A DNA stretch of 64,000 nt, from contig NZ_CP039250.1 of assembly GCF_004795895.1 (NCBI RefSeq), forward strand, positions 2,046,001 to 2,110,000. Direction: 5' to 3'. Of the stretch, positions 31,012 through 46,814 are shown one piece after another. The notes beneath the pieces are model-generated. The model ran no database searches. It was given only the letters and a program-made list of their open reading frames with translations, and was not told where the DNA came from. The translations under genes were made by a program, and so were the position numbers. Each line of letters starts with the position of its first letter. Within the stretch, counting starts at the first letter, position 1. Source of the stretch: Sphingopyxis sp. PAMC25046 (GTDB lineage: Bacteria > Pseudomonadota > Alphaproteobacteria > Sphingomonadales > Sphingomonadaceae).

Positions 31012-31056
31012 TGGTGGACGCACTAGGGCTCGAACCTAGGACCCGCTGATTAAGAG
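31012..31056 (-). repeat. Displaced 3' end of tRNA-Lys (attachment-site direct repeat)
   Basis: The 45 bp are identical to 46739-46783, the 3' part of the intact tRNA-Lys gene, from CCA through the T arm and variable loop into the 3' anticodon stem and part of the loop. The match stops abruptly after GATTAAGAG. The remaining 5' half of a tRNA is missing, so this is not a functional tRNA. Integrating elements that use tRNA genes leave exactly this kind of truncated copy at their far end. Orientation is the same as at the intact gene. Confidence 0.93.
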
Positions 31057-31102
31057 CAGTCTTTCGTCCCAATGCGTTGGAACTGGTCTACTTGCGTCGA
31101 TC

Positions 31103-32791
31103 TCAAAAGTGCAGATACTTTTCTCCATTGCGAACGGCCGCGCGCAAACCTGCCACTTCCGGTACGATATCGGATAGATAGTAGCGCCCGGCGGAAAGTT
31201 TGAGCGATCGAAAGCTGCTGTCAAAACGGGCGTCATGGTCCAACGCCGTGATCTGTCGCTCGATTAGCCAGCCGCATGTCATGACGGAAACCATCGTCAA
31301 ATATGGGGAACTGGCCGCAAGCCTGTCGGAAATGCTGGCCGCTAGCAAATGATCAGTCAGTTGGTCGACGTTGGAGACGAGGTCAAGAACTTCCGGACTT
31401 CTTGCCTCGGCCCTGACGTCCGCGATTAAACTGCGTATGCCCTCTCCGTGATCGTTCATCAGCTTTCGCCCGACTAGATCGGCCGCCTGAATGCCGTTAG
31501 TCCCCTCGTAAATCGGCGCGATGCGTGCATCGCGATAGTGCTGGGCAGCCCCGGTTTCCTCGATAAAGCCCATACCGCCGTGAACCTGGATGCCGAGACT
31601 TGCGACCTGACAGCCAATATCGGTCGCGTGCGATTTGGCCAGCGGGGTCAGCAGGTCGAGCCGTTTCTGCGCGCCATCAAGGCCTAAATGAGCCCGATCG
31701 ATCTCCGCTGCGGCGGCATAGACCAGCGCGCGAATGGCCTGGGTCTGGGAAGTCATCCGCATCAGCATTCGGCGGACATCCGGATGTTCGATGATCGCGA
31801 CAGGGCCGCGCCCCGAATCGCTTGCCAACGACGACTGGGTGCGTTCCCGGGCATAGGCGAAGGCCTGCTGGGTGGCGCGCTCGGCAATCTCGACGCCCTG
31901 CAGGCCGACGTTCAGACGGGCATTGTTCATCATGGTGAACATCGCGCGCATGCCTGCGCCTTCGGGGCCGATCAGCCACGCGTCGCATACATCGTTGTCA
32001 CCAAAGGTCATTACGCAGGTTGGTGAACTGTGGATGCCGAGCTTGTGTTCGATGGACGCGCAGCGCACGTCGTTGCGCGATCCGTCGGGCCTGATCTTGG
32101 GAACGAGAAACAGCGAAAGGCCCTTGGTTCCCGACGGGGCATTGGGCGTGCGCGCCAGCACAAGGTGGACAATGTTTTCGGCCAGGTCGTGTTCGCCGAA
32201 CGTAATGAAGATTTTTGTGCCCTTGACCATCCAGCCCCCGTCAGCTGTCGGGGTAGCCATTGTCCGAACCGCGCCAACATCCGAACCGGCTTGCGGTTCA
32301 GTCAAATTCATGGTCCCGGTCCATTCTCCGGTAATCAGTTTAGGCAGGTATTGCTGCTGAAGATCCGGCGAGCCGTGTGCGGCGATCGCTTCGATCGCAC
32401 CGCCGGTAAGCATCGGGCACAGGTTGAAGCCCATGTTCGCAGTGCCCAGATTTTCGGCCACCGCAAAGCCCAGCACTGCAGGCAGTCCCTGGCCGCCGAA
32501 TGCCTTTGGCGCGGAAATGCTACCCCAACCGCCTTCGACATACGCACAATATGCGTTCTTGAAGCCGTGCGGCATGGTGACCTCGCCTGCGGTCCATTGG
32601 GGCGGTGAGCGATCTCCTGTACGGTTGGTCGGTGCCCAGACGTCCGCGGCAAGTTCTCCCGCGCCTGCGAGGATTGCGCCGACAAGATCGCGATCGAGAT
32701 CTGAAAAGCGGTCGCTATTCACAAGGTCATCAATGCGGGCGACGTGATCGAGAACAAACCGCTGTTCCGCGATCGGTGGAAAGAAGGTCAT
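31103..32791 (-). CDS. Acyl-CoA dehydrogenase (FadE-like, large type)
   Basis: FAD enzyme that introduces a double bond into an acyl-CoA, passing electrons to ETF. The 562-residue protein has the [17 protein letters not shown] flavin-binding motif. The catalytic Glu is in [13 protein letters not shown], and there is a C-terminal extension of about 130 residues, as in the large FadE/AidB-like class. The ATG at 32791 gives the usual [14 protein letters not shown] start; a TTG at 32812 is in frame. It is the last gene of the island operon, 31 bp after etfA. Substrate chain length cannot be inferred. Confidence 0.9.
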
Positions 32792-32821
32792 GAATTGGTT
32801 CCAGTTTGACAATGCATGAGT

Positions 32822-33751
32822 TCAGAGCTTGCCGGTCAGTTCCGGCACGGCATTGAACAGGTCGGCGACCAGGCCGATGTCGGCAACCTGGAAGATTGGT
32901 GCGTCCTCGTCCTTGTTGATGGCGATGATGGTCTTGGAGTCCTTCATGCCGGCAAGGTGCTGGATCGCGCCCGAGATGCCGACCGCGATGTAGACTTCGG
33001 GGGCGACGATCTTGCCGGTCTGGCCGACCTGGTAGTCGTTGGGCACATAGCCCGCGTCAACCGCCGCGCGGCTGGCGCCGACACCGGCGCCCAGCTTGTC
33101 GGCGAGCGGGAAGATCGTGGCCTTGAAGGTGTCCGCATCCTTGAGGGCGCGGCCACCCGAGACGATGATCTTGGCGCTGGTCAGTTCCGGACGCTCGCTC
33201 TTGGCGATTTCGCTGCCGACAAAGCTGCTGGTACCGGCATCGCCGGGGCCGGACACGGTCTCAACCGTTCCCGAACCGCCGCTGGTCGCGGCCTTGGCAA
33301 AAGCGGTACCGCGCACGGTGATGACCAGCTTGGCATCGCTCGATTCGACCGTGGCGATGGCATTGCCGGCATAGATCGGGCGGGTGAAGGTCTTGGGCCC
33401 TTCGACCGACAGGATGTCCGAAATCTGCATCACGTCAAGCAGCGCGGCGACGCGCGGGGCGATGTTCTTGCCGGTGGTCGTGGCAGGCACGACGAAGGCA
33501 TCGTGGTGCCCCATTAGATCCGCAACCAGCGGCGCGACGTTTTCGGCCAGCGCATTGGCATAGGCGGCATCGTCGGCCAGGTGGACCTTGCCCACACCGG
33601 CGATCTGCGCGGCCTGATCGGCCACGGCCTTGCAGCCCGATCCGGCGACCAGCAGGTGCACTTCACCCAGCGCCGCAGCGGCGGTGACGGCCGCCAGGGT
33701 AGCATCCTTGACCGAGGCGTTGTCGTGTTCGACCCAAACGAGAGTTTTCAT
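32822..33751 (-). CDS. etfA: Electron transfer flavoprotein alpha subunit
   Basis: FAD-binding subunit of the ETF heterodimer that takes electrons from acyl-CoA dehydrogenases. The 309-residue protein has a short N-terminal domain and the C-terminal FAD-binding region with [24 protein letters not shown] and [18 protein letters not shown], all typical. It starts one base after etfB ends, and both genes sit next to an acyl-CoA dehydrogenase. As part of the island this is probably a second ETF copy dedicated to the pathway, since sphingomonads normally have a chromosomal one. Confidence 0.95.
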
Positions 33752-33752
33752 C

Positions 33753-34505
33753 TCAAGCTACTCCCATTTCCTTGAGCTTGGCAACGAGGGCATCCACGTC
33801 GGCCACCTTGATCCCGGCACTGCGCACCGGTGGTTCGCTGACCTTCAGCGTCTTGAGGCCCGGCGCGATGTCCACCCCGTAGTCAGCCGGCGCCTTGGTG
33901 GCGAGCGGCTTGGACTTGGCCTTCATGATGTTGGGCAGAGAGGCATAGCGCGGCTCATTGAGGCGCAGGTCGGTGGTGACCACCGCCGGCAGCGCCAGCT
34001 TGACCGTTTCCAGACCGCCATCGACTTCGCGCTTGACCGTCACGTGATCGCCATCGACCGTCACTTCGCCCGCGAAAGTGCCCTGCGGGCGGCCCATCAG
34101 CGCAGCGACCATCTGGCCAACCTGGTTGCTGTCATCGTCGATCGCCTGCTTGCCGGTGATGATCAGGCCGGGTGCTTCCTCATCGGCGACGCCCTTGACG
34201 ATCTTGGCGACCGCCAGCGGCTCAACCTCGACTCCGTCGTCGACCTGGACGAGCACCGCGCGGTCCGCGCCCATCGCCAGCGCGGTGCGCAGCGTTTCCT
34301 GGGCCTTGGCCGGACCGACGCTGAGCGCGACGATTTCGGTGACCACGCCCTTTTCCTTGAGGCGGATCGCTTCTTCGACGGCGATTTCGTCGAACGGGTT
34401 CATGCTCATTTTCACGTTCGCCAGATCGACGCCGCTACCGTCGGCCTTGACCCGCGGCTTCACGTTATAGTCGATCACGCGCTTTACGCAGACCAGGGCT
34501 TTCAT
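33753..34505 (-). CDS. etfB: Electron transfer flavoprotein beta subunit
   Basis: AMP-binding partner of EtfA. The 250-residue protein starts [19 protein letters not shown] and contains [25 protein letters not shown] and the recognition-loop region [22 protein letters not shown], as in EtfB proteins. GAGGAAGGA precedes the ATG at 34505. The 110-bp gap from the SDR gene upstream could hold an internal promoter, so etfBA plus the dehydrogenase may be partly independent of the upstream genes. Confidence 0.95.
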
Positions 34506-46463: not shown

Positions 46464-46620
46464 CAGCAGAATACCAACCTTTGGGTGCGTTCGATGCAGC
46501 ACGGGGCGACCCGCATGCTCACGCGCCACTTGAGGGGCAGTTCAAGCACGAAGCATGGGAGTACGCCTGAATTGAGGCGGTGCATCAGGCCGTTACAGGA
46601 CCGTGCTTGACCAACCTTTC

Positions 46621-46645
46621 GCAGGCTCGCCTGCGGCAGGCTACC
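46621..46645. repeat. GC-rich hairpin near the tRNA-Lys end
   Basis: GCAGGC at 46621-46626 pairs with GCCTGC at 46629-46634, and another GCAGGC follows at 46637-46642, so alternative stems can form. It lies downstream of the tRNA gene on its strand and just before the GCTACCTAG pair. It may slow or end tRNA transcription, or be part of the element end. No T-run follows, so it is not a textbook terminator. Confidence 0.4.
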
Positions 46646-46653
46646 GGCGACAT

Positions 46654-46674
46654 GCTACCTAGGGAGCTACCTAG
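46654..46674. repeat. Tandem GCTACCTAG pair beside the intact tRNA-Lys
   Basis: Two perfect copies of GCTACCTAG (46654-46662, 46666-46674) with a 12-bp period, identical to the pair at 30926-30946. They end 64 bp from the tRNA 3' end. The sequence between repeat and core differs at the two sites, so the motif is conserved on its own account. It could be bound by an integrase or excision factor. Confidence 0.7.
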
Positions 46675-46738
46675 CCAACCTCCGCCTGCCCTCGATGCAC
46701 GGGCAGACCTTTCTAAGAGACTGTGATAAAACAAAAAT

Positions 46739-46814
46739 TGGTGGACGCACTAGGGCTCGAACCTAGGACCCGCTGATTAAGAGTCAGCTGCTCTACCAAC
46801 TGAGCTATGCGTCC
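46739..46814 (-). tRNA. tRNA-Lys (anticodon CTT)
   Basis: A complete cloverleaf on the minus strand: acceptor GGACGCA/TGCGTCC, D arm GCTC...GAGC, anticodon stem GCTGA/TCAGC with loop CTCTTAA (anticodon CTT), T arm CTAGG/CCTAG and an encoded CCA. Its last 45 bp (46739-46783) are the direct repeat found again at 31012-31056. The gene serves as the integration target, and its function is preserved because the element supplies the same 3' end. Confidence 0.97.

Follow-up and report, generated by a model that had tools for sequence, protein, structure and literature searches.

In sphingomonads, the spread of degradation pathways is usually ascribed to plasmids, transposons or whole integrative conjugative elements (ICEs). 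Units with less autonomy have been described in streptococci as cis-mobilizable elements (CIMEs), which lack integration and transfer genes, retain attL and attR attachment (att) sites and lie in tandem with an ICE at a gene end, as part of an accretion-mobilization scheme (PMC5704250). Catabolic islands in tandem at one RNA gene are known from the ssrA locus of Dehalococcoides, where 15 of them lack an integration module and have been proposed as possible cis-mobilizable elements (PMC3146451), and the 13-kb microcin H47 island of E. coli, which has no recombinase, moves in experiments by functions from elsewhere (PMC3191183). In addition, tra/trb clusters in Sphingopyxis granuli TFA have been suggested to be ICEs (PMC4741004). 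Here we analyzed a stretch of 64,000 nt (hereafter the window) from the source strain Sphingopyxis sp. PAMC25046 (G000), corresponding to C1:2046001-2110000 of its one-contig, 4,497,392-bp genome. Its segment 31012-46783 is probably a non-autonomous, CIME-like catabolic island stacked between an 89-kb F-type ICE and a tRNA-Lys(CTT) gene.

The target site is the sole tRNA gene of the window, a tRNA-Lys(CTT) gene on the minus strand at 46739..46814 (ARAGORN). Its 3' 45 bp (copy T, 46739-46783) recur letter for letter and in the same orientation at 31012..31056 (copy B), with a spacing of 15,727 bp, which bears out the perfect tRNA-Lys direct repeats of the original prediction; the B/T pair was the only direct repeat reported in the window (16-base seed, at least 25 nt). 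In the whole genome, the core was found at three sites, all in one orientation (25-mer search, up to 3 mismatches), the additional one being copy A at C1:1987771-1987815, outside the window and 89,241 bp to the left of copy B. Copies A, B and T are identical over 45 bp, and both of their flanks are unlike except for one or a few adjoining bases. The original prediction had proposed looking to the left for a third repeat and a tyrosine integrase, and both were found, the integrase lying inside segment A-B.

Segment A-B (C1:1987771-2077011, the right third of which is window 1..31011) looks like a complete F-type ICE, as judged from gene calls and a Pfam scan of part of its genes. The gene for a tyrosine integrase of 424 aa with an N-terminal arm-DNA-binding domain (C1:1987947-1989221) begins 131 bp after copy A. 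Genes for a type IV coupling protein (T4CP; C1:2010380-2012947), a TrwC-type relaxase (C1:2012985-2015921) and TraG/H/N/U (C1:2036884-2045376) lie further on, and those for TraC (window 1357-3906), a DsbC-like protein (window 4652-5542) and TrbI (window 5539-6990) lie in the window; a transglycosylase, a Toprim primase-like protein, a large helicase, ParB and an ArdC-type anti-restriction protein are also encoded. The features by which an ICE is defined, namely its own integrase, att sites at both ends, a relaxase, a coupling protein and genes for an F-type type IV secretion system (T4SS), are all present. The predicted ICE beside a non-autonomous island at one tRNA gene is therefore supported by the third core copy, the integrase, the T4CP, the relaxase and the T4SS genes. 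As for the conjugative DNA that had been placed to the left of 31012, conjugation genes are indeed found in the window at about 1.4-7 kb, but the adjoining 10.7-30.8 kb is a defence-like block (10702-30775) carried as cargo by the same element.

The island between copies B and T contains 12 called genes between 31056 and 46739, all of which were scanned with Pfam and all but the last of which lie on the minus strand. They encode an acyl-CoA dehydrogenase (31103..32812), electron transfer flavoproteins alpha (EtfA, 32822..33751) and beta (EtfB, 33753..34505), a short-chain dehydrogenase (34615..35382), an acrylyl-CoA reductase similar to AcuI (35379..36374), a second short-chain dehydrogenase (36371..37132), a TonB-dependent receptor (37195..39813), a saccharopine-dehydrogenase-like protein (DUF5938, 39936..41105), an AMP-binding acyl-CoA ligase (41042..42655), a thiolase whose best NCBIfam match, the lipid-transfer protein PRK08256, is under its cut-off (42652..43932), a second acyl-CoA dehydrogenase (43973..45349) and, on the plus strand, an AraC-family regulator (45435..46463). 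AcuI alone passed an equivalog cut-off among the 10 of the 12 proteins compared with NCBIfam. Overall, the gene set would fit the uptake, coenzyme A activation and beta-oxidation-like breakdown of a carboxylic acid. The catabolic genes, the single AraC-type regulator and the lack of a recombinase had all been predicted correctly for this segment, and the only correction is that an outer-membrane receptor gene is present as well.

No recombinase was detected in any of the 12 island genes with Pfam (serine recombinases being searched by Pfam alone), and no tyrosine integrase with a hidden Markov model of our own making. Similarly, none of the 12 genes matched a relaxase, T4SS or other transfer gene in Pfam (oriT was not searched). 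The island has the 45-bp att core on both sides and carries neither an integrase nor a relaxase of its own, by which an integrative mobilizable element would be recognized. Carriage on a plasmid was considered and rejected, as no plasmid record among 72,556 contained one place covering 80% of the island (megablast); the ten best of 108 rows match the etfAB stretch alone, which is 11% of the island. Relatives of the island protein at 39939-41105 occur in 10 of 397 genomes of the family (E up to 1e-60): the source strain, Sphingopyxis sp. LK2115, G122 (at another place), five genomes of one other genus (71-73%) and two genomes at 43-46%. In G122, a cluster homologous to the island (66-77% at the nucleotide level) is located at C1:3346477-3361759, distant from the four cores of that genome, and thus the catabolic pathway occurs outside the island too.

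One relative, LK2115, belongs to another species and holds the island at the same tRNA-Lys gene at an identity of over 99.8%, with 191/191, 6,921/6,929 and 8,697/8,701 identical positions on three draft contigs. To the right of the island, the two strains share 9,275 of 11,113 aligned columns, about 83%, in a stretch that includes the conserved core and the tRNA gene. A near-identical island set against a right flank diverged by about 17% points to recent transfer. The identity between the strains begins at the core on the left and breaks at the tRNA gene on the right. The 4,450 bp to the left of copy B in LK2115, which contain a TonB receptor gene and a truncated open reading frame (ORF) similar to an AMP-ligase, have no match in positions 1968001-2125000 of the source strain except for the att region. 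A relative carrying the catabolic genes at this locus and lacking the repeat at 31012 had been named as a case that would speak against the original prediction, but LK2115 carries the genes together with the repeat. Taken together, the island is probably a passenger moved by the machinery of other elements.

Which machinery this might be is suggested by short repeats near the cores. When 300 bp at the ends were compared by 9-mers, the only sequence common to the right ends of the ICE and the island consisted of parts of a direct repeat, GCTACCTA-N4-GCTACCTA. It reads GCTACCTAGGCTGCTACCTA at the ICE right end (30926..30945, 86 bp left of copy B, where the ICE right end joins the island left end) and GCTACCTAGGGAGCTACCTA at the island right end (46654..46673, 85 bp left of copy T), and we presume it to be an arm-type site of the integrase. 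To the right of copy A, at 108 bp and just ahead of the integrase start, there is an inverted repeat, GCTACCTAAGGTAGC, which was found at the same distance to the right of the core in all seven members of the integrase subfamily (source strain, G293, G333, G122, G304, G368 and G311). Integrases at 91% amino acid identity or more are present in 7 of 80 genomes of the genus, with relatives at 45-48% in two more, and the direct repeat was found at 13 places in 10 of these 80 genomes, with no match for a reversed control pattern. The repeat is present in six of the seven genomes with the integrase and in 4 of the 73 others (Fisher p 4.7e-6, a statistic that ignores kinship). Of the 397 family genomes, 20 contain it, in 29 rows of which two (in G246) overlap, against 4 control matches. 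Among 34 repeat rows from both searches, 29 are near a tRNA-Lys(CTT) core with up to 2 mismatches, at distances of 85-98 bp that in all but two cases fall within 85-87 bp; the rest comprise two near tRNA-Lys(TTT), one beside a diverged core and two without a core. The DNA between repeat and core has a mean pairwise identity of 0.39 and a maximum of 0.98 (25 of the 34 rows, at offset 86; 23 distinct), so that the repeat, itself fixed by the search pattern, has been kept while its surroundings mostly have not. Given this position and co-occurrence, the direct repeat is probably the arm-type site of this integrase subfamily.

Several unusual sites were encountered in these searches. In G394 (L153) and G440 (L161), the arm repeat is found next to tRNA-Lys(TTT) genes, 86 bp away from their matching 3' part, perhaps representing related elements with a shifted target. 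In G302 (L134) and G042 (L137), it occurs without a core, and in G302 the DNA up to the expected start of the core resembles the ICE end in the window and then changes abruptly. G311 has two cores in opposite orientation, 1.7 Mb apart (C1:1144235 and 2854119), as if the chromosome had been inverted across the element, and its integrase match is in two pieces. In G293, cores 315 kb apart (C1:3555410-3871015), with the ICE integrase at the outer one, may delimit a very large element, stacked elements or a rearrangement.

From this layout, a mechanism may be proposed in which the ICE integrase would bind two arms, namely the direct repeat (85-86 bp to the left of the core) and the inverted repeat (108 bp to the right of copy A). 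Copy A would carry the integrase-side arm, and copies B and T would each carry the other arm. Classic phage-type tyrosine integrases need both arms. Recombination of A with B would thus excise the ICE alone, and that of A with T would excise the ICE and the island as one conjugative circle of 105 kb; B and T are two sites of the same kind, and their recombination should be poor. Since it has no integrase-side arm, the island should leave with the ICE rather than alone, and it would travel in cis with the ICE and integrate with it elsewhere, so that we infer co-transfer of the two. Subsequent loss of the ICE by recombination of A with B would leave the island behind, or the island would gain a new neighbour.

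The island does not appear to be unique in its structure. Direct-repeat sites at which the core is followed by DNA other than the tRNA gene mark the left ends of such segments in the source strain, LK2115, G122, G452, G246 and at two places in G432, and no integrase was found in the six passenger segments that were fully read (that of G246 contains a run of 99 N); G211 was not counted, as its repeat lies upstream of an element with its own integrase. The cargo is diverse, consisting of copper resistance in G122 (8 of 9 called genes scanned), kinase, autotransporter and MreB-like genes with one IS3-type transposase on C5 of G432 (8 of 9 genes), peroxidase, VIT, rubrerythrin and P-type ATPase genes on C9 of G432 (8 of 10 genes), and cytochrome P460, lactonase-like, AraC and short-chain dehydrogenase genes in G246 (4 of 13 genes). 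G452, which belongs to another genus, has the same copper island as G122, with 92.9% identity in the 10.1 kb starting at the core, plus extra efflux genes.

At its left end, the catabolic island has the core and a short shared motif without an inverted repeat (CAGTCTTTCGTCCCAATGCGTT, 31057..31078), and at its right end the core and the direct repeat. The left-end sequence resembles those of the other segments that have the direct repeat and no integrase. The five distinct left ends, which were picked by position and not by motif, gave a mean pairwise alignment score of 7.0 over 26 bp, a length chosen after inspection, against a random mean of -5.2, and none of 5000 draws scored as high. A pattern fitted to them matched only these seven sites in 397 genomes; since the sites behind this pattern had themselves been found by means of the repeat, the search would overlook islands whose left ends differ. 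A fixed-gap pattern with 3 mismatches matched only the source strain and LK2115 in 80 genomes and missed the G122 form. ATGYGT-type motifs occur in the left ends of both the ICE and the island, at different spacing. That the island is simply a decayed ICE was rejected, as its left end resembles those of the other islands and not that of the ICE.

The DNA to the left of these passengers provides a further comparison. That the left neighbours of the copper island in G122 and G452 are unrelated was ruled out by a stretch of 395 bp at 82.5%, about 0.3-0.7 kb before the core, and by the same end gene; the rest of the 1.86 kb available from G452 has no match to 10 kb of G122 beyond the repeat and one 18-bp match. 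This end gene, of 203 aa, terminates the left neighbour in G452, G246 and, partly, G122, and is also found at the tRNA copy of an element in G036 that has no core between its two among the matches listed; a relative at 44% lies inside the ICE of the source strain. The left neighbours in G122, G452 and G246 thus look like one element type, and a common end gene fits passengers located behind a common ICE type. The left neighbours in G432 contain efflux and arsenic-type genes (10 genes scanned), and that in G122 contains, in seven scanned genes, five transposases, one restriction gene and one gene without a match. Most of the distal ends of the left neighbours were out of range.

Two further observations concern G432. 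Its tRNA-Lys(CTT) genes on C9 (L178) and C5 (L176) have a passenger each and were perhaps once neighbours. C9 (L178) also has another core, 134 bp past the one on the tRNA side, and from it begins an element with an integrase end that matches that of the ICE studied here at 94% DNA identity.

Multi-copy arrays of the core at this tRNA-Lys gene are frequent in the family, as judged from core copy numbers in 298 family and 80 genus genomes. Our census covers 35 segments between successive copies among the matches listed, each on one contig and mostly below 30 kb, with the 89-kb ICE included; pairs 100-315 bp apart, most longer ones and G353 were excluded. The integrase gene lies directly inside the tRNA-distal copy and points to the tRNA in 23 of the 35 segments, and is deeper, broken or weak in six (G053, one of G131, G156, G234, G305 and G357). 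No integrase was found at E up to 1e-3 in the remaining six (the source island, the second segment of G122, G169, G246, G336 and G349), and in three of these (source strain, G122 and G246) both cores are accompanied by the direct repeat.

The existence of several such passengers raises another possibility, that the island is mobile in trans like a cassette, circularizing by recombination of B with T and entering a tRNA-proximal copy through the integrase of a related resident ICE; islands with one-sided arms would then form a standing class of passengers sharing an integrase, somewhat like integron cassettes. In its favour, all seven left-end sites (five distinct sequences) lie on the tRNA side of a direct-repeat end, which is partly a result of selection as they were found through the repeat, the DNA to the left of the catabolic island differs between the source strain and LK2115, the cargo differs among islands, and the mutual likeness of the five left ends is not readily given by random ICE decay. 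Nevertheless, we consider this route rather doubtful, because the island has no inverted-repeat arm and B and T are therefore sites of the same kind, no circle was seen, and the related left neighbours of the copper island in G122 and G452 fit transport in cis at least as well. In its broadest form, which is a tentative suggestion on our part, sphingomonads may hold a class of integrase-less, cassette-like islands with defined ends that resident ICE integrases capture in trans at the end close to the tRNA gene. Members of such a class, still tentatively, would have the 45-bp tRNA-Lys core and the direct-repeat arm on the right, a short common motif on the left, and cargo for catabolism, copper resistance, oxidative stress or other functions. 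If true, the integrase of an ICE would be a common platform by which large functional islands are shuffled between species.

It is unlikely that the segment is a fixed relic, that is, an old element that lost its integrase and became an immobile piece of the chromosome with leftover att sites. The lack of an integrase would agree with this, as would the LK2115 copy, the contigs of which overlap by 9 bp at two points, suggesting that insertion sequences have inserted there; however, the near-identity with LK2115 against a right flank diverged by 17% indicates recent transfer, and the arm repeat and the core are intact. Even less probable, in our judgement, is a single 105-kb ICE with the island as ordinary cargo, in which copy B would be an internal core from an old fusion without a role. 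Copies A and T alone would define an element with a complete arm pair, but in LK2115 the island likewise begins at copy B, with different DNA to the left, and an element of the subfamily in G033, with the inverted repeat at its distal end and the direct repeat at the tRNA, has no second core (up to 3 mismatches). Exchange of the island by homologous recombination through flanking homology rather than site-specific recombination, for which the tRNA gene would offer a conserved right anchor and the related 395-bp stretch left of the copper island in both genomes a parallel, is very improbable, as LK2115 and the source strain have no match in the 4.45 kb left of the core and their identity begins at the core.

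Several results nonetheless weigh against a CIME-like island carried in cis by this ICE. In LK2115, no member of the integrase subfamily was found (E up to 1e-60), and hence the island sits there without this ICE; moreover, the different DNA on its left and its position on the tRNA side would be more simply explained by entry in trans at T. The original prediction had also proposed a comparison with strains carrying an empty tRNA-Lys site, which did not succeed in rebuilding that site, as the left flanks of the 11 single-copy relatives differ and are mutually unlike except for one 537-bp pair (matches above 200 bp). The assignment of the arms is inferred from position and co-occurrence only: G293 has the integrase but no exact direct repeat at its tRNA copy, four genomes (G302, G042, LK2115 and G351) have the repeat without the integrase, and the repeat is absent in the other three of the six integrase-less census segments. 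No transfer gene was found to the left of the passengers in LK2115 (2 ORFs), G432 (10 genes) or G122 (7 genes), and a working carrier ICE beside those passengers is thus not established from the parts read. No solo island with chromosomal DNA on its left was seen, in a search biased against finding one. Finally, excision, a circle or transfer was not observed in this sequence-based analysis.

Integron gene cassettes, which recombine at attC, likewise consist of integrase-less units lined up beside an integrase gene; the locus described here differs from them in that the site is a tRNA 3' end and the integrase is of the phage type with an arm-binding domain. Compared with the streptococcal accretion scheme, the order is reversed, the island lying next to the tRNA gene and the ICE outside, and, in contrast to the CIMEs as presented in the cited sections, the passengers here keep one arm set only and share a left end that is unlike that of the ICE, with varied cargo (PMC5704250). 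The Dehalococcoides ssrA islands depend on a serine recombinase system and, in the cited sections, have partners similar to integrative mobilizable elements rather than a T4SS-bearing ICE, with no arm sites tied to a specific recombinase (PMC3146451). The microcin H47 island has long imperfect repeats, and in the cited sections its helper is not named and it is not described as stacked on an ICE (PMC3191183). For S. granuli TFA, the cited sections describe no att arrays or passengers, and "tRNA-Lys" is absent from the main text (PMC4741004). Among the open-licence papers listed in our searches, no title concerned tRNA-Lys ICE arrays in Sphingopyxis.

CIMEs, accretion, integrase-less islands at RNA genes and putative Sphingopyxis ICEs are therefore already known. 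As far as our searches of the open-licence literature show, what is new is the arm repeat that links passengers to one integrase subfamily, together with their shared left end and varied cargo, and a catabolic passenger that is near-identical in two species. Here, whole pathways appear to be separable passengers that bring no mobility gene with them and that gene-based mobile-element finders would miss, and the short arm repeat offers a simple sequence tag for finding more of them. In addition, the site layout predicts which circles form and bears on CIME-like movement, a subject on which the literature consulted is mostly streptococcal.

Beyond its conjugation genes, the ICE of the source strain carries several clusters that may contribute to defence. 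Three adjacent genes in window 10702-16842 match PADLOC ZacC, ZacB and ZacA very strongly and form a candidate anti-phage system, and genes for a UvrD helicase, a PD-(D/E)XK nuclease and JukB-like, CoiA-like and REase-ARP proteins in window 16903-30775 are possible further defence cargo. Genes for DUF6079, an N6/N4 DNA methylase and a PglZ-domain protein are clustered at C1:2019605-2030919, which we take to be a BREX-like set, and a HEPN-RES protein is encoded together with DUF3732 / ABC-3C genes at C1:1996912-2001931, near the integrase end of the element.

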